In this document: piece after piece, positions 1,637-13,702 of the stretch
Position numbering within the stretch: position 1 is the first letter of the stretch
Layout: every line of letters starts with the position of its first letter
NCBI GenBank assembly: GCA_017549805.1
Contig: JAFYNJ010000007.1
Location: forward strand, 1-64,000
Reading direction: 5' to 3'
Origin: Bacteroidales bacterium
Lineage (GTDB): Bacteria > Bacteroidota > Bacteroidia > Bacteroidales > F082
DNA: 64,000 nucleotides
Translations under genes and position numbers: made by a program
Notes under the pieces: model-generated
Databases searched by the model: none
What the model saw: the letters and a program-made list of their open reading frames with translations, nothing else
Told to the model about the DNA's origin: nothing

Positions 1637-3700
1637 ATGGGTAAACTCAAAGACTTTGTCAATAGCATTCGTCATCGTTATTATGAGCTTGCGAAGGTTC
1701 TCATGTTCCTGTTGGCCATTGTCGTGGTGTATTGGCAGATGCCTCGAGTAGGCAAGTTCCGTTACGAGTACCAGCTGTACAAGCCCTGGCAGCATGAAAC
1801 CTTGTATGCACCCATCGACTTCCCGATCTATAAGGATGCCGACATGCTGAAGCAAGAGAGCGACGAGATTGTGAAGTCGATCAAACCGATCTTTAAGTTG
1901 GACAGCGAAGCCACACGTCAAGCCAAATCGAGGCTCGACGAGTCGTTTGAGCAGCAATGGCGCGCCCACGACGGCATGGATGCGGAAACCAACAAACGGA
2001 CGCTGATGGAACTGTTCGACCAGGTGCAAAACCGGGGCGTGGTGGCTTACGACAAGGCATTGTCGGACTTCTCGGCCGAGACGCCAATCAGCTTGGTGAG
2101 GGACCAGACGGCCTCCACGGTGGCTTTCGGCAACCTTTACACCATGAATTCGGCTCGTGAAGCCGTGGAGCAATGGATGGAACATGGACATCCCGGCATC
2201 GACGTGCAGCTGCTCTCGACCCTCTTGCTGAATGTGTTGCAGCCCAATGTGGTGTATGACATATCCATGACGCAGCAGGAACAGGACAAGGCCCTTTCGA
2301 AGATGTCGCTGACCTACGGCATGGTCCAAAAGGATGAACTGATTATCACCGAAGGGGAAATTGTGGACGATAATGCCTTTGCCATCCTGAATTCACTTCA
2401 AAAGGAATACGCTACAGGCTCTTTTGCCAAAAACGATTCGACCCAGGTGCAGCTCAGTCAGCTCTTCCTGGTGGCCTTGCTTTTTGTCATGTTGGCGCTG
2501 TATCTGAAGGCGCTGCATAACAAAGATGTGTTCGCCGAGCTGAGCAAGATCAACCTGATTTTGCTGTTGATGGTTGTCATGATCATCCCATCCTATTGGA
2601 TCATGAAGTTGCATCCTTCCTTTATCCTAATGATGCCAGTAGTGATGCTGACCATGGTAATGGTGACGTTTTTCACCTCGGCGTTGGCGTTTACCGTGCA
2701 GGTGTTCACGGTGTTGCTAATCTCCATGGCGGTGCCTAATCCTTTCCAATACATCTTCATGCAGTTGGTGGCCAGCATGATCGTGATCTTCATCCTGTCG
2801 CACCATCGGTCGCGCAGGCATTATTTCATCAGCTCCCTGTTGCTGTTTGTGGTGTATTTCGTGGTTTATCTTGCCTTTGCGTTCCTCTCTTCGGCAGCCA
2901 TCGACTGGTCGGTGGTGGGCTTGTTGGCCTTGAATGCGTTGTTCACGATGCTGGCGCTGCCGGTGATCTTCCTTTTCGAGAAGATGTTCCGCATGACGAC
3001 TTCCCTGACGTTGATGGAGCTGAACAACACCAACACGCCATTGCTTCGCAAGCTTGCCCAGACGGCTCCGGGAACCTTCCAACATTCCATCCAGGTGGCG
3101 AACTTATGCGATGAGGTACTGTATGCCATCGGAGGAGACTCGTTGTTGGCACGTACGGGTGCTTTGTACCATGACATCGGCAAGATGAAGAATCCGATGT
3201 ATTTCACCGAAAACCAGCATGGGGGCTATAACTCCCACAACGATATCTCCAATGTAGAGAGCGCCCAGATCATCATCTCCCATGTTTTGGATGGCATCGA
3301 GATGGCCAAGAAAGCTCGGCTTCCTGAGCAAGTGGTCGAGTTTATCCGCACCCATCATGGCACGCGCCGCACCGAGTATTTCTACATCATGGAGAAACGG
3401 GAGCATCCCGACGAAGAGGTGGATCCTGCCGATTTCACCTACCACGGCCCGATTCCGTTCTCGCGCGAGACCGCCGTGCTGATGATCTGCGACTCGGTGG
3501 AAGCGGCCTCAAGAAGTCTGAAGGAACCTGATGAGAACAACATCAGCAACTTGGTTGACAACATCATCCAAAAGCAGACGGACGATGGGCAATTCCAGAA
3601 TGTGGACCTCACCTTGCGTGACTTCACGACCATCAAGAAGGTGCTCAAGAAGAAGCTGATGAGCATTTATCACATTAGGATTGCTTATCCTGAAAAATAA
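1637..3700 (+). CDS. 7TM-HD family membrane phosphodiesterase, PgpH/YqfF-like
   Basis: 687-residue membrane protein. One N-terminal membrane segment (about 15-35) precedes an extracytoplasmic region (about 40-270, 7TMR-HDED type), a block of seven hydrophobic segments (about 275-460) and a cytoplasmic HD domain with HDIGK near residue 511. A second metal-binding stretch, HNDISNVES, and the later RTHHGT follow. In Firmicutes PgpH hydrolyses cyclic di-AMP; Bacteroidetes homologues have the same architecture, so c-di-AMP turnover linked to an envelope signal is the likely role (inference). Its end overlaps the converging WbqC gene by 16 bp. Confidence 0.88.
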   Translation: MGKLKDFVNSIRHRYYELAKVLMFLLAIVVVYWQMPRVGKFRYEYQLYKPWQHETLYAPIDFPIYKDADMLKQESDEIVKSIKPIFKLDSEATRQAKSRLDESFEQQWRAHDGMDAETNKRTLMELFDQVQNRGVVAYDKALSDFSAETPISLVRDQTASTVAFGNLYTMNSAREAVEQWMEHGHPGIDVQLLSTLLLNVLQPNVVYDISMTQQEQDKALSKMSLTYGMVQKDELIITEGEIVDDNAFAILNSLQKEYATGSFAKNDSTQVQLSQLFLVALLFVMLALYLKALHNKDVFAELSKINLILLLMVVMIIPSYWIMKLHPSFILMMPVVMLTMVMVTFFTSALAFTVQVFTVLLISMAVPNPFQYIFMQLVASMIVIFILSHHRSRRHYFISSLLLFVVYFVVYLAFAFLSSAAIDWSVVGLLALNALFTMLALPVIFLFEKMFRMTTSLTLMELNNTNTPLLRKLAQTAPGTFQHSIQVANLCDEVLYAIGGDSLLARTGALYHDIGKMKNPMYFTENQHGGYNSHNDISNVESAQIIISHVLDGIEMAKKARLPEQVVEFIRTHHGTRRTEYFYIMEKREHPDEEVDPADFTYHGPIPFSRETAVLMICDSVEAASRSLKEPDENNISNLVDNIIQKQTDDGQFQNVDLTLRDFTTIKKVLKKKLMSIYHIRIAYPEK

Positions 3701-4344
3701 TACGTCATGCTCGCAATGACGGCTGCCGCCTCGGGACCTTCGTTGAAGATCAAATCCAAAACACTCAGATCTGGCGCAAAGGGGAACTTGGCGCTGAAAA
3801 CCTGATAGTATTCCGGAAACAAGCTGGGATCGACTTTGGCTTTCGGGCTGAAAACCTCACGCAAGTCGTTGTCAACCGTCTTGAGGTAATCTGTCGTGTG
3901 TACGATTTCCTTCTTGGTTTTCAACATCTTCAAAACAGCCTGTAAGGCAGCGTCGTTCAGGTCGATGAGCCGTTCGAAACGCTCTTCAAAGATGGGTTCC
4001 AGATAAGGGAAGTAATGATCGAAATAAGGGGCTGCTTTGTAGGCCGATTCCAGGCAGCGGCGGTGGATCTGCTGCCAAGGTTCCACGTAACTCACGGCCA
4101 TGTCCTTGGTCATGGTGTGGTTGCCGTTGACTTTTACCACGGGAACACTTAGCGACTGAACGCCATTGGCGGTCATCACGCGGCAACGGTTTCGGTAAGT
4201 CTGCTTATGGTAGGTCTCGAAAATTTCAATGCGAGGCTCGTCGTCCTGAAGGAAACGGGCCATGTAACTGATGCAAGGAAAGTATGCAGTACTGAAAATA
4301 GCCAAGTCGTGAAGCTTTGTTTTATTTGACGAGGTATTTGTCAA
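3685..4344 (-). CDS. WbqC family protein
   Basis: 219 residues in the longest frame. Matches the WbqC-like family by the N-terminal FSTAYFPCISYMARF pattern, the NRCRVMTANGVQSLSVPV block and the PFxxDLSVLDLIFNEGPEA C-terminus; in other bacteria WbqC genes sit in polysaccharide loci, but the activity is not established. The listed start is a TTG that overlaps the end of the thioredoxin gene by 23 bases. A shorter start cannot be excluded because no ATG lies between it and the conserved FSTAYFP block. Probably co-transcribed with the thioredoxin gene. The last codons contain a 12-base match to the palindromic repeat at 13703 (see findings). Confidence 0.8.
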   Translation of the reverse strand: MTNTSSNKTKLHDLAIFSTAYFPCISYMARFLQDDEPRIEIFETYHKQTYRNRCRVMTANGVQSLSVPVVKVNGNHTMTKDMAVSYVEPWQQIHRRCLESAYKAAPYFDHYFPYLEPIFEERFERLIDLNDAALQAVLKMLKTKKEIVHTTDYLKTVDNDLREVFSPKAKVDPSLFPEYYQVFSAKFPFAPDLSVLDLIFNEGPEAAAVIASMTYYFSG

Positions 4345-4750
4345 CGACTTCTCTGAATTGGGCTTCGTCCATCGCGCCCACTTGCATCATGGGCTTGCCT
4401 TCCAACGGGATGAAAAGCACCATGGGGATGCTGCTTACACGGAAGGCACTGGCAAGTTCCTGCTCCTGATCTACGTTGATCTTGTAAACCGTCAGCTTTC
4501 CTTCATATTCGTTAGCCAGCTTTTCAAGGATGGGAGCCACTTTGCGGCAGGGACCGCACCAGTCGGCATAGAAATCCACAATGGCAGAAGTCTTTCCTTT
4601 GAAAACAAAGGCTTGGGGATTTTTTTCAAAGTCCCATACCTTGGAGAGGAATTCCTTATAGGTGAGGTGTTGTACCTTGGTCTTTCCTTGGGCCATGGCG
4701 ATGCTGCCTGTCATGAACAACAAAAGGGCAAAAACAACGGTTTTCTTCAT
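4322..4750 (-). CDS. Exported thioredoxin-family protein
   Basis: 142 residues: signal peptide (MKKTVVFALLLFMTGSIAMA) followed by a classical thioredoxin fold with WCGPC (C65 and C68), the INVDQEQELA strand and the cis-proline loop VSSIPMVLF. Predicted periplasmic disulfide reductase or thiol-redox protein. First gene of a two-gene unit with WbqC. Its promoter overlaps the promoter of divergent hutI as a palindrome, which suggests coupled, mutually exclusive expression. Confidence 0.9.
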   Translation of the reverse strand: MKKTVVFALLLFMTGSIAMAQGKTKVQHLTYKEFLSKVWDFEKNPQAFVFKGKTSAIVDFYADWCGPCRKVAPILEKLANEYEGKLTVYKINVDQEQELASAFRVSSIPMVLFIPLEGKPMMQVGAMDEAQFREVVDKYLVK

Positions 4751-4766
4751 AGTTTCTTAAAAATAA

Positions 4767-4803
4767 TTGTGCAAAGATAGAATTATTTTTTATCTTTGTA
4801 CAA
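4767..4803. promoter_or_regulatory. Interlocked divergent promoters of the thioredoxin gene and hutI
   Basis: Plus strand: -33 TTG (4767-4769) and -7 TATCTTTG (4791-4798), 21 bp apart, for hutI. Minus strand: -33 TTG (4801-4803) and -7 TATCTTTG (4772-4779), also 21 bp apart, for the thioredoxin gene. The two halves form a 13-bp inverted repeat with one mismatch around an 11-bp centre. Each -33 lies just outside the other promoter's -7, so two polymerases cannot bind together. Confidence 0.8.
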
Positions 4804-4818
4804 TTTTAATACCACAAT

Positions 4819-6060
4819 ATGTTACTGGTAAACATTAAGGAACTTGTCGGCATTGAAGAGAAGGGACTCTTGATGAAGAGCGGCCTCCAAATGTCCAAGA
4901 CGGGAAGGATCAAGAATGCCTTCCTTTTGACAAAAGGAAAAAGAATTGTCGACTACGGCAAGATGAACTCGCCGGAGTGCAAGAAATACCTGGAAGAAAA
5001 CCATCGCGTATATGACCTCAAGGGAAGTGTGGTGATGCCCGCTTTTTGCGACTCGCACACGCATCTGGTGTATGCCAACTCCCGTGAGATGGAGTTCGTT
5101 GATAAGATTCGGGGCTTGAGCTATGAGGAAATCGCCAAACGAGGCGGTGGCATCTTGAACTCGGCGAAAGCCACGGCAAAGGCATCGGAAAATGAGCTTT
5201 ACGACATGGCTTGCAAGCGCCTCGACGAGGTGATGCGCATGGGAACAGGTGCCATTGAGATCAAGAGCGGCTATGGCCTAACCACCGAGAGCGAGCTGAA
5301 GTTGTTGCGCGTCATCCGCAGGTTGAAGGAGAATTCTCCATTGACCATCAAGTCGAATTTTCTGGGCGCCCATGGCATCCCGATGGAATACCGTGGCCAT
5401 CAGGAAGACTATGTGGATCTCGTGATTAACGAGATGATACCGTTGGTGGCTGCCGAGGACCTGGCCGACTTCATCGATGTTTTCTGCGACAAGGGCTTCT
5501 TTACCTGTGAGGATACGGAGCGCATCTTGATGGCGGGCATCAAATACGGCATGAGGCCGAAGATCCATGCCAATGAGATGGCCATATCGGGAGGCGTTCA
5601 AGTGGGCGTGAAGTACGGCGCTATTTCCGTGGATCACTTGGAACAAATAGGGAAGGAGGAGATCGAGTGTCTGAAAGGCACCGAAACCATGCCGACCATC
5701 CTGCCGGGATGCGCCTTCTTCCTGAATCTACCGCTGTCTCCTGCACGCGAGATGATCCAAAACGGCTTGCCCGTGGCCATGGCCTCCGACTTCAATCCGG
5801 GCACCTCGCCGTCGGGCAACATGCAGCTGATCTTCTCCATGGCCTGCATCCGCTACCGCTTGACACCAGAAGAGGCCTTGAACGCCACCACGCTCAACAC
5901 CGCTTACGCCATGGGCGTCAGCGATGAGCTGGGCAGCATCACCCGAGGGAAAATCGCCAACCTCATCGTGACCGAACCGATGACCCAATTGGAGTTCATA
6001 CCTTACTATTATGGCACTAACAAAGTGGCTAAGATGATTTTGAACGGAAAATATGTGTAA
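4819..6060 (+). CDS. hutI: Imidazolonepropionase
   Basis: Third enzyme of histidine degradation: hydrolyses 4-imidazolone-5-propionate to N-formimino-L-glutamate in the cytoplasm. 413 residues, the usual size. Amidohydrolase metal site in SHTHLVYANSREME near residue 79; substrate-binding stretches GAIEIKSGYGL and GAHGIPMEY; metal ligands in HANEMA and the Asp of ASDFNPGTSPS. The next pathway enzyme, formimidoyltransferase-cyclodeaminase, lies at 12005 rather than adjacent; histidase and urocanase are not in the window. Start chosen at the only ATG after the promoter, giving a leader of about 13 bases. Confidence 0.96.
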   Translation: MLLVNIKELVGIEEKGLLMKSGLQMSKTGRIKNAFLLTKGKRIVDYGKMNSPECKKYLEENHRVYDLKGSVVMPAFCDSHTHLVYANSREMEFVDKIRGLSYEEIAKRGGGILNSAKATAKASENELYDMACKRLDEVMRMGTGAIEIKSGYGLTTESELKLLRVIRRLKENSPLTIKSNFLGAHGIPMEYRGHQEDYVDLVINEMIPLVAAEDLADFIDVFCDKGFFTCEDTERILMAGIKYGMRPKIHANEMAISGGVQVGVKYGAISVDHLEQIGKEEIECLKGTETMPTILPGCAFFLNLPLSPAREMIQNGLPVAMASDFNPGTSPSGNMQLIFSMACIRYRLTPEEALNATTLNTAYAMGVSDELGSITRGKIANLIVTEPMTQLEFIPYYYGTNKVAKMILNGKYV

Positions 6061-6071
6061 AACCCAACAAT

Positions 6072-7640
6072 ATGAAGAAACTTGTACTATTAGGAATGGC
6101 ATTGGTCGTATCGGCCTTGCTGATTTTCTCCTGTAACAAAAACCGTTTCGACTTTGAAAACCTCGAGTCGATAGAAGGCTCTGGACAATGGAAACTGCCT
6201 ATCGGATCCTTGTATGTCACGCTTGGCCAGGTGATTGACCAGTTGGAAGAGAACAATTTGCTCTCATACGATGAGAATGGCAATTACCAAATTAGGTATG
6301 ACTTTGCGATGGAAGAGATTCTTAAAGGATCGGAATTCCTGAATCTTGGAACTATGACGTTTGGATTCGAGATGCATATCAACGATCAAGATACCAGTTT
6401 GTTTGTGATCCAAGATTCCATCTATGGCACCTTGCGTTTTAGCCAGGAGATCAAACTATCCATGGATAGTGCGGGAATTGAGACGGCCGTCATCAAATCG
6501 GGCGAGTTGTTGATGTCGATGGTGACTGATATCGGTCATGTCACAGGAATCGTTTTTTCTTCCTCCGACATCATCATGCCCAATAACGATACGCTTACAT
6601 GCTATTTCAACGAGATGAACAATACAGTGGATATCGCAGGCGCCACTTTCGAGATGCGTAAGGATCCCGTGACCGGCATGTCCGATTCCACCCTTGTCTT
6701 CAATTATGAAGTCCATTATGAGGTGACGGATCTGAGTTTAACGGAGTTTGACCTTGCCACTGAAATAGGGCTCGTCGATGTAAAGGTTCAGGAAATCAGC
6801 GGTTATATCGATCATTATGAATATGATTTCACCTATGATACCACCTTTGCATTGCCGATTTCGAACCTTTATGGAGGATTGTCGCTTGTGGGAGTGGATC
6901 TGCAGGTGCAAGAACGGAACACATTCGGACTCAATGCCTTGTTGGATATCGACCAGGCGGAGTTTTATGGACAGAATGGGTTGACCGCGCCGTTGTTCAG
7001 CCAATATCCCTGCACGTTGCAGGTGCATTCAACCCCGTATTTCACCAATGTCATGCCTGAAAATGGAGTCATCAACGATCACCTCTCATACCATACCGAT
7101 TGTGACGGTTTCCGTTTTGCTTCAAGGTTGATTCTCAATCCTGACTCGGGAAATGATCTGATCATGATCAATGACACCTCGGCACTTGGCCTTGCTGTGA
7201 GTGCACTGGTTCCTTGCCAGTTCAACATTCCCGGTGTTTCATACGTGGATACGGTTGATATCAATGTTTCCGGAATTACCGGTCCGGAACTGGTGAGAGA
7301 AATCATCCTGGGCATCATCTTCAAGTCACAAATGCCGTTCAATTTGAGTGCACAATTCTATACGATCGATTCCTTGACAGGCCAGATCTCGGATTCGCTG
7401 ATGGCCAATGCCCTTCGCATCAATGGTTCGTTTGACGGTACCCTTGTGGAAACCGAGGCGGATATTTCGGTCACCCATGAGCGTCTGAACAGTTTGATGG
7501 CCGCCAACAAGCTCATCATGCGCTTGGGCATCGATACGCAAGACTTGGATGTTTACCTGAACCGTGAAACCGGTTTGGGTGTGACCATCAAGGCGGATAT
7601 CTTCTATGACGGTGAAATTGAAATCGATCAATTAAGGTAG
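6072..7640 (+). CDS. Large lipoprotein of unknown function, partner of a DUF5723 protein
   Basis: 522 residues with a lipoprotein signal peptide: MKKLVLLGM start, hydrophobic core, and C21 in FSCNKN. The mature part is beta-rich with many short Asp/Ser/Thr-containing strands and no catalytic motif that I recognise. It begins 11 bases after hutI and is followed after 11 bases by the DUF5723 gene, with an AGGAGG ribosome-binding site (7639-7644) over its stop codon, so the two are translated as a pair. Likely an outer-membrane-anchored partner of that protein. No function is claimed. Confidence 0.75.
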   Translation: MKKLVLLGMALVVSALLIFSCNKNRFDFENLESIEGSGQWKLPIGSLYVTLGQVIDQLEENNLLSYDENGNYQIRYDFAMEEILKGSEFLNLGTMTFGFEMHINDQDTSLFVIQDSIYGTLRFSQEIKLSMDSAGIETAVIKSGELLMSMVTDIGHVTGIVFSSSDIIMPNNDTLTCYFNEMNNTVDIAGATFEMRKDPVTGMSDSTLVFNYEVHYEVTDLSLTEFDLATEIGLVDVKVQEISGYIDHYEYDFTYDTTFALPISNLYGGLSLVGVDLQVQERNTFGLNALLDIDQAEFYGQNGLTAPLFSQYPCTLQVHSTPYFTNVMPENGVINDHLSYHTDCDGFRFASRLILNPDSGNDLIMINDTSALGLAVSALVPCQFNIPGVSYVDTVDINVSGITGPELVREIILGIIFKSQMPFNLSAQFYTIDSLTGQISDSLMANALRINGSFDGTLVETEADISVTHERLNSLMAANKLIMRLGIDTQDLDVYLNRETGLGVTIKADIFYDGEIEIDQLR

Positions 7641-7651
7641 GAGGATGAACG

Positions 7652-9094
7652 ATGAAACAGTTGAGGATATATTTTATTCTGATGCTGATGGCACTGGGTT
7701 CGGTCGCCGTCGCACAAATGGTTTCACCTGTCGATTTCATGCGCAACAACCCGAGGGCTGCGTTCGCCAATCCAGCCACGTATGTCGCCGATTATGGCTA
7801 TTTCGACATGGGGTTGGGAGGCATCAACATTGGTGTCATGAATTTGGGTTTGAAATACGACAAGTTTTTCCGGTTCAACAGCCAGGGCCAGCCTGTAGTG
7901 GTTGATTTGGATCAAGGGGTGGCAAGCCTTCGTAGGAAGAACTATGTAAACTCATTTGTGAATGCCGATATCTTCCATTGCGGCCGTCGAACCAAACACG
8001 GCTATTTCACCTATACGCACCGGATTCGTGAAAAGGAGTCGATGAGCTACACTAGGGACCTGCTCCAGTTGCTTGCCAAAGGCAACGCCGCATTTGTAGG
8101 AGAGTCGAACCCTGCCAATATTGATGTTAGGGTGTCGGCGAAAGCGTTCCAAGAGTTCGCTTTCGGCTATCAGATGAGCCTTACCGAGCAATTGAACGTC
8201 GGACTGCGCTTGAAGTTCTTGATGGGATACATGGATACCAAAAGCAAAACCGTCAACGCCAAGCTTTACACCGATCCCGAGACATATACTTTGAAGCTGA
8301 TGACAGCTGCCGATGCACGCGGAACGTTACCATACGAGCTGTATAAGGAAGATGGCAAGATCAAGATCAAAGATGGCAGGTTCAATATTGCGAACCTTTT
8401 CAAGAACTATGGTCTGGGCATCGATTTGGGCGGCGAATACAAGATCAACGATGAGTTTGGCGTGGCTGCGGCAATTAACGATTTGGGCTTCATCAGATGG
8501 AACAACTTTTCCGTCAGGTTCAAGGGTGAATTGACGGATGGCGGGTCATACTATGACAATGGTGCCTTTGTGTTCACTGGAGTGACGCCGCAGCAGGTGA
8601 TCGGTATCATGCAAGATCCGCAATATCTCCCCAAGCTTGCCGATTCCCTTACGAAGTATTTCCAAATCAATCCTGAGAGTCTCACCAAATACACCTCTGG
8701 CATAAATGCCAACCTGATGGCGCGAGGCTACTATGACTATACGCCCGAGCATCGTTTTTCGGCCCAGCTGATGGGATACAACCTGGGTCTTGGGCTGAAA
8801 CCGGCCTTGACACTTGCCTATACGGGCTCTTTCGACGAGAAGTACGATGTGGTTGCCACCTACACCATGATGCCTGGCAGTTACGACAATCTCGGTGTCG
8901 GTTTGAGCGCCAATTTGGGAGGCATGCTGATTTATGTGGCCACCAACAACCTGTTCGGGTTCTTCAATCCAGCCAACAGGACCTTCTTGAATGCCCAGTT
9001 CGGCATCTCGTTCATGAGTGGCGAAAACATCAGTCGAAGCGAGACGATCATTTTGAGGGATCAAGCGGCCGAGGCAGCAGCCGATGAAGAGTGA
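7652..9094 (+). CDS. DUF5723 family outer-membrane-type protein
   Basis: 480 residues with signal peptide (MALGSVAVAQ cleavage region). The N-terminal pattern MRNNPRAAFANPA, then GYFDMGLGGINIGVMNLG and many alternating hydrophobic/aromatic strands ending in FGISFMSGENI, fit the DUF5723 family of predicted outer-membrane beta-barrels of Bacteroidetes. A strong Shine-Dalgarno (AGGAGG, spaced 7 bases) decides this ATG over the out-of-frame ATG at 7645. Its stop TGA overlaps the ATG of the radical SAM gene. An acidic tail (QAAEAAADEE) follows the last strand, unusual for a barrel that ends at an aromatic residue. Confidence 0.78.
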   Translation: MKQLRIYFILMLMALGSVAVAQMVSPVDFMRNNPRAAFANPATYVADYGYFDMGLGGINIGVMNLGLKYDKFFRFNSQGQPVVVDLDQGVASLRRKNYVNSFVNADIFHCGRRTKHGYFTYTHRIREKESMSYTRDLLQLLAKGNAAFVGESNPANIDVRVSAKAFQEFAFGYQMSLTEQLNVGLRLKFLMGYMDTKSKTVNAKLYTDPETYTLKLMTAADARGTLPYELYKEDGKIKIKDGRFNIANLFKNYGLGIDLGGEYKINDEFGVAAAINDLGFIRWNNFSVRFKGELTDGGSYYDNGAFVFTGVTPQQVIGIMQDPQYLPKLADSLTKYFQINPESLTKYTSGINANLMARGYYDYTPEHRFSAQLMGYNLGLGLKPALTLAYTGSFDEKYDVVATYTMMPGSYDNLGVGLSANLGGMLIYVATNNLFGFFNPANRTFLNAQFGISFMSGENISRSETIILRDQAAEAAADEE

Positions 9095-9702
9095 TGTGTA
9101 AGGCGCGCATCATAGGAGTGAGTCGGCACAGGCTCTCGACGGATGGCGAGGGCGTCACTACCTTGGTGGCATTCAACGGTTGCCCGTTGCGCTGTAAATA
9201 CTGTCTCAACAGCCATTGCTGGAATCCTGAGATGGGTCGGGAATATACTCCTGAATCACTTTATGAGGAGACCAAAATAGACCAGCTTTATTTTCTTGCC
9301 ACCCATGGCGGTGTCACTTTTGGCGGCGGAGAACCTCTGCTTCAAGTGGATTTTATCAAGGAATTCCGATCGCTTTGTGGCCCCCAGTGGCAGATTTTGG
9401 CGGAGTCCAGTCTCAACGTGCCTTTCGAGAATCTGGAAGCGCTCGATTCCATTCTGGACGGCTATATCATAGATATCAAGGATGTGGATCCTGCTATCTA
9501 CCAAGCCTATACAGGGAAAGACAATGTTGTGGTTTTGAAGAATTTGGAATGGCTTTTGCAGCATAGAGATCCAAACTGCATCATGGTACGGGTCCCTCAC
9601 ATTCCCGATTTCAATACGGATGAAGACGTGTCGAAAAGCATGGATCGCCTCAAGGCAATGGGGGTGAAGAATTTCGATGAGTTCAATTATATAATAAGGT
9701 AA
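9094..9702 (+). CDS. Small radical SAM enzyme of the pyruvate-formate-lyase-activase type
   Basis: 202 residues from the ATG that overlaps the previous stop (TGATG); a GTG one codon earlier is possible. The [4Fe-4S]/SAM motif is C30-x3-C34-x2-C37 (CPLRCKYC), followed by the SAM-binding GGGEP at about residue 76 and later IDIKD and VRVPHIPDF strands. It lacks the extra ferredoxin-like insert of classical PflA and has no glycyl-radical enzyme beside it. Instead it is followed four bases later by two cysteine-headed TonB-like proteins, which makes those proteins candidate substrates (inference). Glycyl-radical activation of an unlinked enzyme, for example anaerobic ribonucleotide reductase, is the alternative. 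Confidence 0.85.
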   Translation: MCKARIIGVSRHRLSTDGEGVTTLVAFNGCPLRCKYCLNSHCWNPEMGREYTPESLYEETKIDQLYFLATHGGVTFGGGEPLLQVDFIKEFRSLCGPQWQILAESSLNVPFENLEALDSILDGYIIDIKDVDPAIYQAYTGKDNVVVLKNLEWLLQHRDPNCIMVRVPHIPDFNTDEDVSKSMDRLKAMGVKNFDEFNYIIR

Positions 9703-9706
9703 TGTT

Positions 9707-11056
9707 ATGCCCAAAGGAAAACAAACTTGTAAGATACTGAAAGAGATCCGCAAACAGATTGCGGAAGAAAACGATATTAAATTGGTTATCGAGGAATGTA
9801 CCTATAAAGGCGACTGCTTGGGTACCTGTCCTAGATGCGAGGCTGAAGTGCGTTATCTTGAACGAGAACTGGAGAAACGCCAACGTCTGGGCAAGGTGGC
9901 TGTGTTTGCCGGGGTGTCGCTCGGTACGGTGTTTGGGGCGACTTCGTGCGATTCTACTCAAGCTGTGGTGGAAAAGCAACCCCTTCCTGGCGATGTGGTG
10001 GCTGTTGAACCTGTCGAACCAAAGGATTCCAGGGACTCCATCCCGGAGACTTTGATGGGAATAGTGCGCATGTTCCAATACGTTTTTACTTTTGACGACG
10101 TGCTGTATGAGCAATCAATGAAAGATCTGTTCATTTTCCCCGAAATGAAAAACCTAGTCGTACGTGGAGGTGAGATCCATTATAGTCATGTTGGTGGAGG
10201 CGGGTGCTCAACAATCGAGCAGTTGGTTGCTGCAGCCAAGGAATTCAGGGCGCCTTATTATCCCAAAGGTGAACAACAGATGTTGGAAGACCTCTCGTTT
10301 TATTTGAGTGTTTCCATGGATAAGCAAGTTGGATATAGTGGTGAAATGGAAGTGGCGTTTACTGTTGACGAGAATGGCGGCCTTTCGGATATTGTTGTTC
10401 AGAAAGGCATTGACGAAGCTTTGGATGCCAAAGTCGTCTCATTTTTTGAACCCATGAAATGGAATTCGGCATACTATCAACTGAAGGATGAGGATCGAAG
10501 CTGGCCGTTTGTGTGCCAGTGTGCAATGAAAATTGAATTTCCAATTCGAATCGTTGAACCATTAATGGGTATCGTGCCCGCGTATAACCCGGTGCTCTTG
10601 CATTTGGAATCCGTAAGTCCTGAGGTTCAGGCGAAGATGGTGCTCCCGGAATCCAAAAAACTGACGGTGAAGGGATATGAATTGCAGATCCCCGAATCGC
10701 TTTATAGCAACTATAGAAATAACAAGGAGTCTTATCTGGTTGAAAAGGCGGCACGTATTGCCGCTCCTCATATCCCTGGTGGTGAGCCGGCATTGTTGCA
10801 GTTTCTTGAGGAACAGCTCGGTGAATATGCAAGGAAAGGTTCTCGCGAGATGGAGGTTGAATTCACTGTGCTTGTGAGCGGAAGGGTGACCAATGTGGAG
10901 GTTGTGAGGGGAATTGATGAAGAACTTGACGCCCAAGTGACACGAATTTTCAAGATGATGGTATGGGAACCCGGCGTTTGGGAGATGGAGTCGGGCGAAC
11001 AAATCATGGTTTCGTGCAGCTGTACACAGAAGATTTATTTTCCATTAAAACAATAA
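9707..11056 (+). CDS. Cysteine-headed TonB-like protein with two C-terminal TonB domains
   Basis: 449 residues. Cytoplasmic head (1-63) with C8, C31, C37, C41 and C44; the last three are spaced C-x3-C-x2-C. A hydrophobic segment (64-80) ends at C81, then comes an acidic/proline linker and two tandem TonB C-terminal-like units (about 180-285 and 355-449). Each unit has a PKGEQ/PGGEP-type helix start and an EVxFTV...GIDExLDAxV core. A sequence of this shape would span the periplasm. The head is almost identical to that of the next gene. Co-transcribed with the radical SAM gene. Transport energiser, iron or redox sensor, or radical SAM substrate are all open. C81 after the hydrophobic segment resembles a lipobox but the 63-residue cytoplasmic head argues against lipidation. 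Confidence 0.75.
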   Translation: MPKGKQTCKILKEIRKQIAEENDIKLVIEECTYKGDCLGTCPRCEAEVRYLERELEKRQRLGKVAVFAGVSLGTVFGATSCDSTQAVVEKQPLPGDVVAVEPVEPKDSRDSIPETLMGIVRMFQYVFTFDDVLYEQSMKDLFIFPEMKNLVVRGGEIHYSHVGGGGCSTIEQLVAAAKEFRAPYYPKGEQQMLEDLSFYLSVSMDKQVGYSGEMEVAFTVDENGGLSDIVVQKGIDEALDAKVVSFFEPMKWNSAYYQLKDEDRSWPFVCQCAMKIEFPIRIVEPLMGIVPAYNPVLLHLESVSPEVQAKMVLPESKKLTVKGYELQIPESLYSNYRNNKESYLVEKAARIAAPHIPGGEPALLQFLEEQLGEYARKGSREMEVEFTVLVSGRVTNVEVVRGIDEELDAQVTRIFKMMVWEPGVWEMESGEQIMVSCSCTQKIYFPLKQ

Positions 11057-11061
11057 AGATT

Positions 11062-11898
11062 ATGGCCAAAGGAAAACAAACTTGTAAGATCTTGAAAGAA
11101 ATCCGCAAACAGATTGCGGAAGATAATGATATCAACCTGGTCATCGAGGAATGCACCTACCAAGGCGACTGCCAAGGCACCTGTCCGAGATGCGAGGCGG
11201 AGGTGCGCTATTTGGAGCGTGAGTTGGAGAAACGTCAGCGGATGGGCAAGGTGGCGGTCATCGCCGGCATGTCGCTGGGTACGATGCTTACGGCATCTTC
11301 TTGCACCCATGTCGTGCCTCCTCCCACGGGGATTGTGCCCAATCCAAACGCCCCGGAGTGTCCCAACGACAGTGTTCCTGACGACACCATCCCCGACGAT
11401 GCCTATCTGCTCGAAGGTGATGTGCTGGCGCCGGAACCGGATAGCACCGAAATGGATTCCGATGAGGATGAGTTTGGGCGGCTGGAAGGCGAGCCTGCTG
11501 TTTCCGATTCAAATGAGAAAACTGTTTTGGATGAATGTGTTGCTCCAGTAATGGGTGAAGTGGCTGATCCTGAAAGGGAGGTTTTCACGATTGTTGAGCA
11601 GATGCCTGAGTTTCCTGGAGGTCAAGATTCTTTAGATAAATATATTAAAGAAAACATGAGATACGGGGAGATGATCAGCAAGTATCAAGCTGATGCGATA
11701 GGCAGGATATTTGTGAATTTCATCGTTGAGCCTGATGGAAGTATTACTAATGTAAAGGTGGTACGAGGGATATATGAGCATTATGATGAGGAAGCTGTGC
11801 GTGTAGTGAAATCCATGCCGAGATGGAAGCCTGGAAAGCAATACGGTAAACCCGTTAGGGTGTCTTATACTATTCCTGTTGTTTTTAAATGGTATTAA
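11062..11898 (+). CDS. Cysteine-headed TonB-like protein, single TonB domain
   Basis: 278 residues from ATG 11062; the frame extends upstream into the previous gene but the paralogue aligns from MAKGKQTCK. Head 1-63 has the same five cysteines at positions 8, 31, 37, 41 and 44 as its neighbour and C81 after the membrane segment. An acidic, proline-rich linker (about 82-180) follows, then a canonical TonB C-terminal domain with MPEFPGG at its start and FIVEPDGSITNVKVVRG and PRWKPGKQ in its core. Heads of the two paralogues differ at only a few residues while the rest has diverged strongly, so the head is under tight constraint. Five bases separate it from the preceding gene. Confidence 0.78.
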   Translation: MAKGKQTCKILKEIRKQIAEDNDINLVIEECTYQGDCQGTCPRCEAEVRYLERELEKRQRMGKVAVIAGMSLGTMLTASSCTHVVPPPTGIVPNPNAPECPNDSVPDDTIPDDAYLLEGDVLAPEPDSTEMDSDEDEFGRLEGEPAVSDSNEKTVLDECVAPVMGEVADPEREVFTIVEQMPEFPGGQDSLDKYIKENMRYGEMISKYQADAIGRIFVNFIVEPDGSITNVKVVRGIYEHYDEEAVRVVKSMPRWKPGKQYGKPVRVSYTIPVVFKWY

Positions 11899-11927
11899 TT
11901 CTCTATTCCACATAAAGAAAAAAGCCC

Positions 11928-11935
11928 TACCTTTG
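11928..11935 (+). promoter_or_regulatory. -7 box for ftcD
   Basis: TACCTTTG, a good Bacteroidetes -7 match, 69 bases before the ftcD ATG. It leaves a longer leader than usual in this window, and a stable hairpin (11950-11971) stands in that leader. No -33 TTG at the expected distance. Confidence 0.5.
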
Positions 11936-11949
11936 CCGCACAATCGTAG

Positions 11950-11971
11950 GGGCAGACCTATGTGTCTGCCC
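11950..11971 (+). repeat. Palindromic hairpin in the ftcD leader
   Basis: Perfect 8-bp arms, GGGCAGAC and GTCTGCCC, around a six-base loop. The wider string (GTAGGGGCAGACCTATGTG) has the look of a dispersed palindromic repeat rather than a riboswitch. It lies in the transcribed leader of ftcD and could affect mRNA stability or read-through from the upstream gene. Confidence 0.7.
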
Positions 11972-12004
11972 TCAACCAACAAGAAATAATCTAATACAAA
12001 GAAT

Positions 12005-13702
12005 ATGAAACAATTGATCGAATGCGTGCCGAATATCAGTGAAGGCCGCGATAGAAACATCATTGACCAAGTAACCGCTGAAATCGAGAAAGTGGAAGGT
12101 GTCAAGCTGCTGGACGTGGATCCCGGCATGACCACCAACCGCACCGTCATCACCTTCGTGGGTGAGCCTGAGCCTGTGTGCGAAGCTGCCTACCGCGTGG
12201 TGAAGAAAGCCGCCGAGCTCATCGACATGAGCCAGCATCACGGCGCCCACCCGCGCCAAGGCGCCACCGACGTGTGCCCCCTCATTCCCGTGAGCAACAT
12301 CACCATGGAAGAGGTGGTCGAGTACGCCCACAAATTGGGCAAACGCCTCGGCGAGGAGCTGAACATCCCGATCTACTGCTACGAAGAGGCCGCCTACATC
12401 AAGGAGCGCCGCAACCTGGCCTATTGCCGCACGGGTGAATACGAATCCCTAGCCTCGCGCCTCGGCACCGAGCAGTGGAAGCCCGACTTCGGTCCCAACG
12501 AGTGGAACGAACACGTGGCCCACACGGGTGCCACCCAAGTGGGTGCCCGTGACTTCCTCGTGGCCATCAACTATAACCTCAACACCACCTCGACGCGCCG
12601 CGCCAACGCCATCGCTTTCGACGTCCGCGAAAAGGGTCGCCCGATGCGCGAAGGCGGCAAGGTGACTGGCAAACCGATGAAAGACGAAAACGGCAAACCG
12701 ATCATGATCCCTGGAACCTTGAAGGCCACCAAGGCCATCGGCTGGTTCATCGAGGACTACGGCATCGCCCAGGTGTCGATGAACATCACCAACATCAGCG
12801 TTTCGCCGGTGCATGTCTGTTTTGAGGAGGTTTGCGCTAAGGCCGCTGCCCGTGGCGTGCGCGTTACGGGTTGCGAAATCGTCGGCCTCGTGCCCAAGAA
12901 GGTGCTGATGGATGCTGGCAAGTTCTACCTCGCCAAGCAACAGCGCAGCCTCGGCGTGAGCGAAGAGGAAATCATGAAGATCGCCATCAAGTCGATGGGT
13001 CTCGACGACCTGAAGCCTTTCGACCCGAAGGAAAAGGTTATCGAATACCTCATCGAAGACCATACACAGAAGAAACTCGTCGACATGACCTGCACAGGCT
13101 TTGCCAACGAGACTGCTTCTGAAAGCCCCGCTCCTGGTGGTGGTTCCATCTCGGCCTACATGGGTGCCCTCGGTGCTTCATTGGCTACCATGGTCGCCAA
13201 CCTGTCATCGCACAAGCCGGGCTGGGACGAGCGCTGGGAGGAGTTCTCCAACTGGGCCGTCAAGGGTCAGGCCATCAAAGATGAGCTGCTTGAACTCGTT
13301 GATGAAGACACCAACGCCTTCAATACCATTATGGCTGCTTTCGGTTTGCCGAAAAAGACCGATGAAGAGAAGGCTGCCCGCACGCAGGCCATCCAGGATG
13401 CCACCAAGTATGCCACTCAGGTGCCTTTCCGCACGATGAAGGTCGCCTTCAAGGCCTTTGAAGTCGTCCGCGCCATGGCCGAGACTGGCAACCCGAACTC
13501 CGTCACCGACGCCGGTGTGGGAGCTTTGTGCGCCCGTTCGGCCGTCATGGGAGCCCATCTCAATGTGAAGATCAATGCCGCTTCTTTGAAGGACGAAGAG
13601 TTCAAAGCGCAGATCCTGAAGGATGCCGCCGAGATTGAAGCCGCTGCTATCAAGGAAGAAGCTGAGATCCTTGAGATTGTCAACAAAGTGATTAACGGAT
13701 AA
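12005..13702 (+). CDS. ftcD: Formimidoyltransferase-cyclodeaminase (fused)
   Basis: Bifunctional folate enzyme: transfers the formimino group of formiminoglutamate to tetrahydrofolate, then releases ammonia to give methenyl-THF. 565 residues. The N-terminal formiminotransferase starts MKQLIECVPNISEGRD and contains HHGAHPRQGATDVCP. The cyclodeaminase begins at about residue 360 (ASESPAPGGGSISAYMGALG) with the later NPNSVTDAGVGAL block. Completes histidine catabolism begun by hutI. Codon choice is markedly restricted (GCC, AAG, ATC, GGC), as expected for an abundant protein. A REP-like palindrome follows directly after the stop. Confidence 0.96.
   Translation: MKQLIECVPNISEGRDRNIIDQVTAEIEKVEGVKLLDVDPGMTTNRTVITFVGEPEPVCEAAYRVVKKAAELIDMSQHHGAHPRQGATDVCPLIPVSNITMEEVVEYAHKLGKRLGEELNIPIYCYEEAAYIKERRNLAYCRTGEYESLASRLGTEQWKPDFGPNEWNEHVAHTGATQVGARDFLVAINYNLNTTSTRRANAIAFDVREKGRPMREGGKVTGKPMKDENGKPIMIPGTLKATKAIGWFIEDYGIAQVSMNITNISVSPVHVCFEEVCAKAAARGVRVTGCEIVGLVPKKVLMDAGKFYLAKQQRSLGVSEEEIMKIAIKSMGLDDLKPFDPKEKVIEYLIEDHTQKKLVDMTCTGFANETASESPAPGGGSISAYMGALGASLATMVANLSSHKPGWDERWEEFSNWAVKGQAIKDELLELVDEDTNAFNTIMAAFGLPKKTDEEKAARTQAIQDATKYATQVPFRTMKVAFKAFEVVRAMAETGNPNSVTDAGVGALCARSAVMGAHLNVKINAASLKDEEFKAQILKDAAEIEAAAIKEEAEILEIVNKVING

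Follow-up and report, generated by a model that had tools for sequence, protein, structure and literature searches.

The first 64,000 nucleotides of contig JAFYNJ010000007.1 from a Bacteroidales bacterium (F082; assembly GCA_017549805.1; positions 1-64,000, forward strand), hereafter called the window, contain a three-gene cassette that encodes a small radical S-adenosylmethionine (SAM) enzyme, P0001, and two proteins beginning with nearly identical five-cysteine heads (Table 1). With moderate confidence, we read this cassette as a two-part protein-modification system resembling those of ribosomally synthesized and post-translationally modified peptides (RiPPs). In such a system the head would recruit or activate an enzyme similar to the activases of pyruvate formate-lyase (PFL), and the enzyme would act on glycine motifs. 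The pairing of head and enzyme, the signal-peptide-like ends behind the heads, the enrichment of a glycine motif and the modularity of the head were all observed at the level of sequence. Beyond these observations, we infer that the head is a metal-binding recognition domain that docks on the enzyme, that the motif is the target and that its glycine, or a neighbouring residue, is the reaction site.

A five-cysteine head and its radical SAM partner

The heads of the two window proteins agree in 57/63 residues and in 158/189 nucleotides. Since the first, second and third codon positions are identical in 55, 62 and 41 of the 63 codons, respectively, it is the protein rather than the DNA of the heads that appears to be under conservation. 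Both proteins have Cys 8, 31, 37, 41, 44 and 81 in common, and the genes are closely packed, with 4 nt between the enzyme gene and the first head gene and 5 nt between the two head genes. An earlier note, made from the sequence of this stretch alone, had reported the positions of these genes, the near-identical heads of 63 residues, the six cysteines and the radical SAM gene 4 nt upstream, all of which were confirmed.

When one genome per species (84,980 species) was scanned, at least 487 relatives of the head were found, and the best 77 loci were kept. All five cysteines were retained in 139 of the 141 head open reading frames (ORFs), the window's included, a pattern that, judged by these sequences, exceeds chance. 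The enzyme was encoded in the same stretch as the heads in 56 of the 77 loci. Twenty of the 21 loci without a nearby enzyme were searched genome-wide, L096 being left out as it belongs to the same assembly as L062, and in 18 of these 20 the enzyme was present elsewhere in the genome (231-335 bits). A second enzyme match never exceeded 95 bits in the 23 genomes searched, three of which were positive controls.

The same association was observed in genome samples. Of 149 genomes of the window's family, 32 encode heads and exactly these encode the enzyme, so that both or neither were present in 149/149. All 32 positive genomes belong to one genus and are hence not independent, but at least 20 listed members of this genus lack both. 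A sample of 395 genomes of the class yielded two with heads, the window's own among them, and these two were also the ones with the enzyme; the searches scored part of the initial candidates. In the family of genome G135, both were found in the same 6 of 9 genomes, and in a held-out set of 59 loci from two other families the enzyme was within the short stretch fetched in 46. The tie to a radical SAM enzyme proposed in the earlier note is supported by the joint occurrence in the three samples (149, 395 and 9 genomes), and heads were not commonly found without the enzyme, as the 18 of 20 genome-wide searches indicate. Its supposition of a single cytoplasmic partner for one head carried on diverse tails is likewise supported. 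By sequence, the constant unit is therefore a PFL-activase-like radical SAM enzyme together with a five-cysteine head.

One to seven heads accompany an enzyme in a given stretch, seven being found in L036. L096 carries four tandem head proteins (8001-12181), one of which (10051-11139) has a partial duplication of the head. Bacillota, as labelled from metagenome bins, account for 15 of the 61 enzymes, and 11 of these 15 form one supported clade. The enzyme gene follows the heads in 15/15 Bacillota and comes first in 36/41 Bacteroidota.

P0001 matches the radical SAM family PF04055 (56.8 bits) and a 4Fe-4S single-cluster model in Pfam. NCBIfam places it near the activases of glycyl radical enzymes; its top model, TIGR02494, scored 118.8 bits against a cut-off of 174.35, and P0001 was below the curated cut-off of every model among the 25 listed of the 41 matched. 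With a profile of 31 enzyme relatives, the top solved structure was the PFL-activating enzyme (PFL-AE) 3c8f (E 2.7e-27). The structure predicted for P0001 (mean predicted local distance difference test score, pLDDT, 92.9) resembled 3c8f and 3cb8, the latter being PFL-AE complexed with a peptide substrate, with template modelling scores of 0.86-0.87 and 25% identity. Three cysteines and the stretches GGGE and D-x-K-D were kept in 60 or 61 of 61 enzyme relatives, and the D-x-K-D stretch aligns with DLKQ of PFL-AE. PFL-AE abstracts hydrogen from a glycine, and the glycine of the motif described below is therefore suspected as the reaction site.

No additional domain was found in P0001, nor any match to a RiPP recognition element (RRE) or a SPASM domain, and Pfam gave no PqqD/RRE match at E<=0.5 for P0001 or either window head. 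The models TIGR04133 and TIGR04134, which we take to describe a radical SAM enzyme paired with a lipoprotein, were absent from the matches of the two window head proteins (E<=0.5) and of 62 relatives (E<=0.01); this negative covers the head proteins, and for the enzyme it extends to the 25 listed of the 41 matched NCBIfam models. The fold and sequence of P0001 would also suit an ordinary activase of a glycyl radical enzyme that adjoins the head genes by chance. Such an explanation is hardly credible, given the scores under each of the listed cut-offs and the close pairing with the heads; in addition, no glycyl radical enzyme was recognised by eye in the 14 largest neighbour clusters per phylum, the genomes themselves not being searched.

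As for the head, its part of the window proteins had no Pfam match, no cluster-binding family matched the heads in the Pfam and NCBIfam scans of relatives, and the comparison with solved structures gave no significant match (best E 0.44). In the proposed system, the head would probably bind metal. It shares the CX3CX2C spacing with the radical SAM enzyme, to which the earlier note had attached meaning. The idea that the head mimics the SAM cluster was set aside; the likeness is probably a coincidence, because six heads fused to the enzyme in the genus g22 have C-x4-C-x2-C instead.

A different role for the head, which departs from the proposed system in that respect only, would be that of an auxiliary Fe-S or electron-transfer domain brought in by the substrate. 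The enzyme is indeed a bare core of 202 residues without SPASM or twitch domain, a review (PMC8326336) attributes RRE and SPASM or twitch domains to a large share of the radical SAM enzymes of RiPP pathways, and the head is rich in cysteines and fused to the enzyme in one genus. We consider this quite unlikely, since no cluster-binding family or fold was matched and zinc fits the pattern equally well.

Probable signal peptides and the modular head

Behind the head, a basic stretch and a short hydrophobic stretch are followed by a lipobox-like cysteine (as in LSGC or LTAC) or by an AxA/Q-like site (as in VALA/Q or STEA/Q, the slash standing at the cleavage-like end). A strict lipobox or AxA[QED] was present in 112 of 137 heads versus 28 of 347 internal hydrophobic segments of neighbouring proteins. 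What the earlier note had taken for a membrane segment anchoring the protein next to C81 is, on this comparison and from the lipobox-like ends GATSC and TASSC of the window proteins, most likely a signal peptide with its lipobox cysteine. On this view, Cys81 would most likely be lipidated, and the head would act as a leader in the cytosol and be lost on export.

The tails are less constant. Both window proteins have Pfam matches to TonB_C (42.8 and 52.8 bits), which cover two stretches of protein 1 and one of protein 2, in agreement with the two units versus one described earlier. The Pfam/NCBIfam scan of relatives took 62 of the 85 non-redundant head proteins and found TonB_C in 24 of the 62. 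With a model built here, it was detected in 71/141 head ORFs and in 0/18 Bacillota heads, and the head forms with serpin, HIRAN or ADP-ribosylglycohydrolase domains had none. By these counts TonB_C is optional and not the point of the system. This bears on the earlier suggestion that the head is an Fe-S or zinc sensor reporting iron or redox state to TonB-dependent transport in the envelope, which would agree with a cysteine head on the inner side, with TonB_C in both window proteins and in 24/62 relatives, and with the TonB-dependent-receptor-like gene of five g22 loci and the recurring ABC-type ATPase-like genes (both labelled by eye). The suggestion has become scarcely probable. The absence of TonB_C from all 18 Bacillota heads and the existence of the serpin, HIRAN and ADP-ribosylglycohydrolase forms speak against it, and a signal peptide that is probably cleavable would leave no standing anchor.

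The head was found before a signal peptide, fused to the enzyme, alone beside the enzyme, and before serpin, HIRAN or ADP-ribosylglycohydrolase domains. In the genus g22 it was fused to the C-terminus of the enzyme in 6 of 9 genomes with the five cysteines kept in 6/6; no further head was found elsewhere in these six genomes, and the other 3/9 were without head and enzyme. In all six, a gap of 12-33 nt separates the fusion from a downstream ORF (61-92 codons) that has neither a head nor a signal peptide and encodes three glycine segments, the last of which reads L[IV]G[DE][IL] in 6/6. No other single observation argues as strongly as this arrangement of a fused head and a separate motif peptide for a substrate besides the head and for the motif as the target.

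Among the loci of the two other families, further fusions were found at L250 and at L247, where enzyme, head, motifs and a HIRAN domain are encoded in one ORF of 643 residues (3239-5170). The enzyme is accompanied at L255 by a head without signal peptide followed by motif and serpin, and at L248, L251 and L252 by the equivalent form with HIRAN; at L246 (3395-5865) a head-motif-serpin-HIRAN gene is overlapped by the enzyme gene (276 bits). The head protein adjoining the enzyme at L239 (1111-1710) has long, near-identical repeats (PPEEWDWENEQDEETDDDIHV) and six LxG segments. At L243, L244, L245 and L253, in two families of genomes, four-gene operons encode a stand-alone head of 79-88 residues adjoining the enzyme, with the gene of a protein of more than 1,000 residues (LRR_5/Sel1 in the three scanned) on one side of this pair and that of a DUF3800 or DUF6602 protein on the other.

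These forms also bear on the possibility that the head is no more than a long extension of the signal peptide, there to delay or direct export, while the enzyme acts elsewhere. The head does lie directly before the signal peptide in most members, and autotransporters have long signal sequences (PMC2805444). Nevertheless, heads that are fused to the enzyme, that stand alone, or that precede serpin or HIRAN domains without a hydrophobic stretch make this very improbable, as does the close pairing with the enzyme.

The glycine motif beyond the head

The mature parts of the head proteins vary widely yet repeat short glycine-centred segments; in L067, for instance, LAGVIAPP, LLGDIAPP and LMGVMPAP occur within 89 residues. 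The motif L.G[DE][VIMP] was counted in 98 of the 137 mature parts, those shorter than 25 residues and near-duplicates being dropped, and occurred 68 times in 17,137 residues. It was found 32 times in the 205,357 residues of 585 neighbouring proteins, so that the mature parts were 25 times denser, and once in the 20,528 residues of 60 other lipobox proteins. In the held-out set, 52 of 85 mature parts were kept after removal of parts shorter than 30 residues, near-duplicates and parts resembling the discovery set. The strict motif occurred 22 times there, in 21 of the 52 parts, versus 1.38 +- 1.16 in shuffled sequences (highest of 300 shuffles, 5), and a looser form 65 times, in 42 of the 52, versus 15.5 +- 3.7.

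Furthermore, an unbiased count of spaced triplets in the 18 Bacillota proteins placed EL.G, L.G.P and L.GD within the top four. As these proteins lack TonB_C, their ranks are not due to that domain; among the 79 other proteins, L.G.V ranked 11th and L.GD 17th, mostly behind pieces of the TonB_C signature. The end of the carboxypeptidase-regulatory-like domain bears the motif or a near form in 14/19 discovery and 19/33 held-out members, in profile-based counts that include near-copies. The strict motif was present in 32 of 71 head-bearing TonB_C ORFs and missing in 11 of 12 TonB_C ORFs of the same loci without a full head, fragments included; the twelfth (L041, 9158) resembles the frameshifted tail of a head gene. 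Three paralogues with degraded heads (L048 and L050, 7486-7998; L020, 4036-4533) had no motif.

These data also concern the possibility that the head is itself the substrate, its cysteines being crosslinked or otherwise altered, with the glycine motif as a linker feature. The earlier note had proposed such crosslinking of the head by the radical SAM enzyme, and the likeness to a peptide-modification system that it drew has stood, whereas the glycine motif beyond the head, which the note had not noticed, is now the more likely target. The retention of five cysteines in 139/141 heads and in 6/6 fused g22 heads, the stand-alone heads next to the enzyme, around which no motif was seen, and the close pairing of head and enzyme would all agree with a modified head. 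This explanation is nonetheless unlikely, as the g22 enzyme carries its own head and a separate motif peptide is still kept, the motif is enriched in unrelated cargo and in held-out data, and cleavage of the signal peptide probably takes the head away in most members.

For the two-part system, the following sequence of events is proposed. The head would dock on, or complete, the small radical SAM enzyme of PFL-activase fold, a glycine segment behind the head would enter the PFL-AE-type active site, and the enzyme would modify those copies of L.G[DE][VIMP], or of forms close to it, that follow the head in the same polypeptide. Because a signal peptide follows the head in most members, modification would take place in the cytosol, before Sec export by way of a lipoprotein or ordinary signal peptide. 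Signal peptidase would remove the head with the signal peptide in a leader-like manner, and the head would stay where the cargo has no signal peptide. The treated segments may thus end up N-terminal in periplasmic or surface cargo carrying TonB_C, a carboxypeptidase-regulatory-like domain or no known domain.

Several observations weigh against this proposal. The enzyme was not found in 2 of the 20 head-bearing genomes searched (L042 and L077), L042 being a 3.7 kb contig that starts inside a head gene. At L249, a head-HIRAN gene with a weak motif is accompanied by only a 53-residue remnant of the enzyme (4088-4249, 24.9 bits), and at L254, a head with a weak motif and ADP-ribosylglycohydrolase had no enzyme within the 8 kb fetched. 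The head was modelled as a helix, a cysteine loop and a helix with moderate certainty (mean pLDDT 76), and a fold search with this model gave no match at E<=0.001. With regard to the motif, 35 of the 137 mature parts lack even its loose form, as do the domain ends of 5/19 and 14/33 carboxypeptidase-regulatory-like members for the motif or a near form. The first two segments of the g22 peptides read xG[IL][LIF], only the last fitting the motif, and no convincing core motif was found in the genes neighbouring the stand-alone heads (L243-L245 and L253). The expression L.G[DE][VIMP] was picked by eye from the discovery set, and the held-out test alone is free of that choice; the 52 held-out parts come from the same order, one being a degraded-head protein of a genome already seen, and the shuffle statistics ignore common descent.

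A bolder version, tentative and on the unlikely side when all its parts are taken jointly, would make the head a portable tag for glycine modification. Fused to unrelated proteins, it would turn L.G[DE][VI]-like segments into substrates for hydrogen abstraction at the glycine, which might leave a persistent glycyl radical, form a crosslink or alter the backbone oxidatively. Exported lipoproteins and the signal-peptide-free serpin, HIRAN and ADP-ribosylglycohydrolase proteins would be treated alike, and the head would take the place of both RRE and SPASM.

Relation to known systems and the window locus

The enzyme is related over its whole length, in fold and in sequence, to PFL-AE and other glycyl-radical activases, and like them has a bare radical SAM core. 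It differs from them in being paired with head proteins, in having no glycyl radical enzyme partner recognised in the neighbour clusters listed and in scoring below the activase cut-offs listed. The known glycyl loop of glycyl radical enzymes is also different from the proposed target L.G[DE][VIMP]. TonB_C is present in a subset of the head proteins, as in energy transducers of the TonB type; unlike these, the head proteins have a signal-peptide-like end and would have no standing anchor, and TonB_C is optional. A conserved cytosolic stretch before the signal peptide is shared with the extended signal peptide regions of autotransporters, from which the head differs by its five cysteines in about 60 residues, its modularity and its tie to an enzyme.

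Sec or lipoprotein signal peptides in precursors, some with repeated short motifs and some of them large substrates, are described for DAG-RiPPs (hybrids of RiPP and lipoprotein) and bufferins, both made by MNIO enzymes (PMC12636315, PMC12452194). The enzyme here is a radical SAM protein and not an MNIO, and the proposed motif has no cysteine. A cysteine head of 60 residues precedes the signal peptide, whereas PMC12636315 expects that most lipidated RiPPs do without a leader. PMC12452194 regards Sec signal peptides as highly unusual in RiPP precursors and does not settle how they escape premature export. With radical SAM RiPP systems (PMC8326336), the cassette shares a small enzyme adjacent to its putative substrates, a leader-like N-terminal region and, among these putative substrates, some with several motifs. 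That review covers the RRE and SPASM domains found in such maturases; no match to either was found in the enzyme, and the putative recognition domain would reside on the substrate, the enzyme or a separate protein and is modelled as helix-loop-helix, not as the winged helix of the RRE. In a survey of Bacteroidales RiPPs (PMC10352776), neither "TonB" nor "lipoprotein" appears in the text. Literature searches returned no description of the pairing of head and enzyme, which is weak evidence because subscription papers are mostly outside their coverage.

The cassette would work like a RiPP or protein-modification system. On the features tested, it is not of the MNIO kind, its enzyme has no RRE or SPASM match and falls short of the known glycyl-radical activases, and naming it after TonB overlooks what matters most about it. 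If this is true, many proteins of gut Bacteroidota and Clostridia that are named "energy transducer TonB", "radical SAM protein" or hypothetical would belong to one modification pathway, whose recognition domain is mobile between enzyme and substrate. It would also give one answer to how RiPP substrates with signal peptides are caught before export, a matter raised in PMC12452194. Additionally, it becomes testable whether PFL-activase-type enzymes act on glycines of proteins other than glycyl radical enzymes.

Table 1. Genes of the cassette and their features in the window.
Feature	Position	Strand	Remarks
Radical SAM enzyme P0001, 202 aa	9094..9702	+	PFL-activase-like core only; CX3CX2C at residues 30/34/37
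Head protein 1, 449 aa	9707..11056	+	Head, putative lipoprotein-type signal peptide, three LxGxV motifs, two TonB_C-like units
Five-cysteine head of protein 1, residues 1-63	9707..9895	+	
Signal-peptide-like stretch of protein 1, lipobox-like GATSC end (Cys81)	9893..9949	+	
Candidate target motif LPGDV, protein 1 residues 93-97	9983..9997	+	
Candidate target motif LMGIV, looser form, protein 1 residues 116-120	10052..10066	+	
Candidate target motif LMGIV, looser form, protein 1 residues 286-290	10562..10576	+	
Best TonB_C match of protein 1, residues 382-428	10850..10990	+	Pfam
Head protein 2, 278 aa	11062..11898	+	Head, putative lipoprotein-type signal peptide, three motifs, one TonB_C
Five-cysteine head of protein 2, residues 1-63	11062..11250	+	
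Signal-peptide-like stretch of protein 2, lipobox-like TASSC end (Cys81)	11248..11304	+	
Candidate target motif LEGDV, protein 2 residues 117-121	11410..11424	+	
Candidate target motif LEGEP, protein 2 residues 141-145	11482..11496	+	
Candidate target motif VMGEV, looser form, protein 2 residues 163-167	11548..11562	+	
TonB_C of protein 2, residues 214-276	11701..11889	+	Pfam

Upstream of the cassette, the window holds a DUF5723 gene (7652-9094), preceded by a lipoprotein-like gene (6072-7640). The stop codon of the DUF5723 gene and the ATG start codon of the enzyme gene share one base (TGATG). Close to the cassette, 20 Bacteroidota loci have a gene resembling the former and 24 have one resembling the latter, a recurrence that probably reflects shared gene order. 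A third cassette gene was considered and rejected, as the clusters recurring in 16-24 Bacteroidota loci presumably represent the shared order of close relatives. ABC-type ATPase-like genes, labelled by eye, were observed in one neighbour cluster of 4 Bacillota loci (median distance 3.1 kb) and one of 8 Bacteroidota loci (4.3 kb). In g22, the gene after the motif peptide is TonB-dependent-receptor-like, again as labelled by eye, in all five of the longer loci, where the gene order is conserved and dnaA is part of it. We read both kinds of neighbour as context, though a link to uptake could be read into them.

A role as phage cargo was discarded, the scan of viral contigs having given 16 pattern matches, none of them a relative, and so was a defence system, for which PADLOC, run on 7 proteins, matched the enzyme weakly to viperin and otherwise gave only PDC-M03B, for the HIRAN cargo. 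A control regular expression for SusC gave no matches, and the tRNA scan of the window found none.

On a 93 kb plasmid of Segatella copri (NZ_CP137558.1; L018), two head proteins and the enzyme are encoded near transposase, mobilisation and integrase genes, and the relatives on this Segatella plasmid are named "energy transducer TonB". The whole cassette is present twice in the source assembly, the other copy lying at about 125824-128900 of contig C14 with identical match scores; since the contamination of this assembly is 7.58%, that copy is probably a strain or assembly duplicate.

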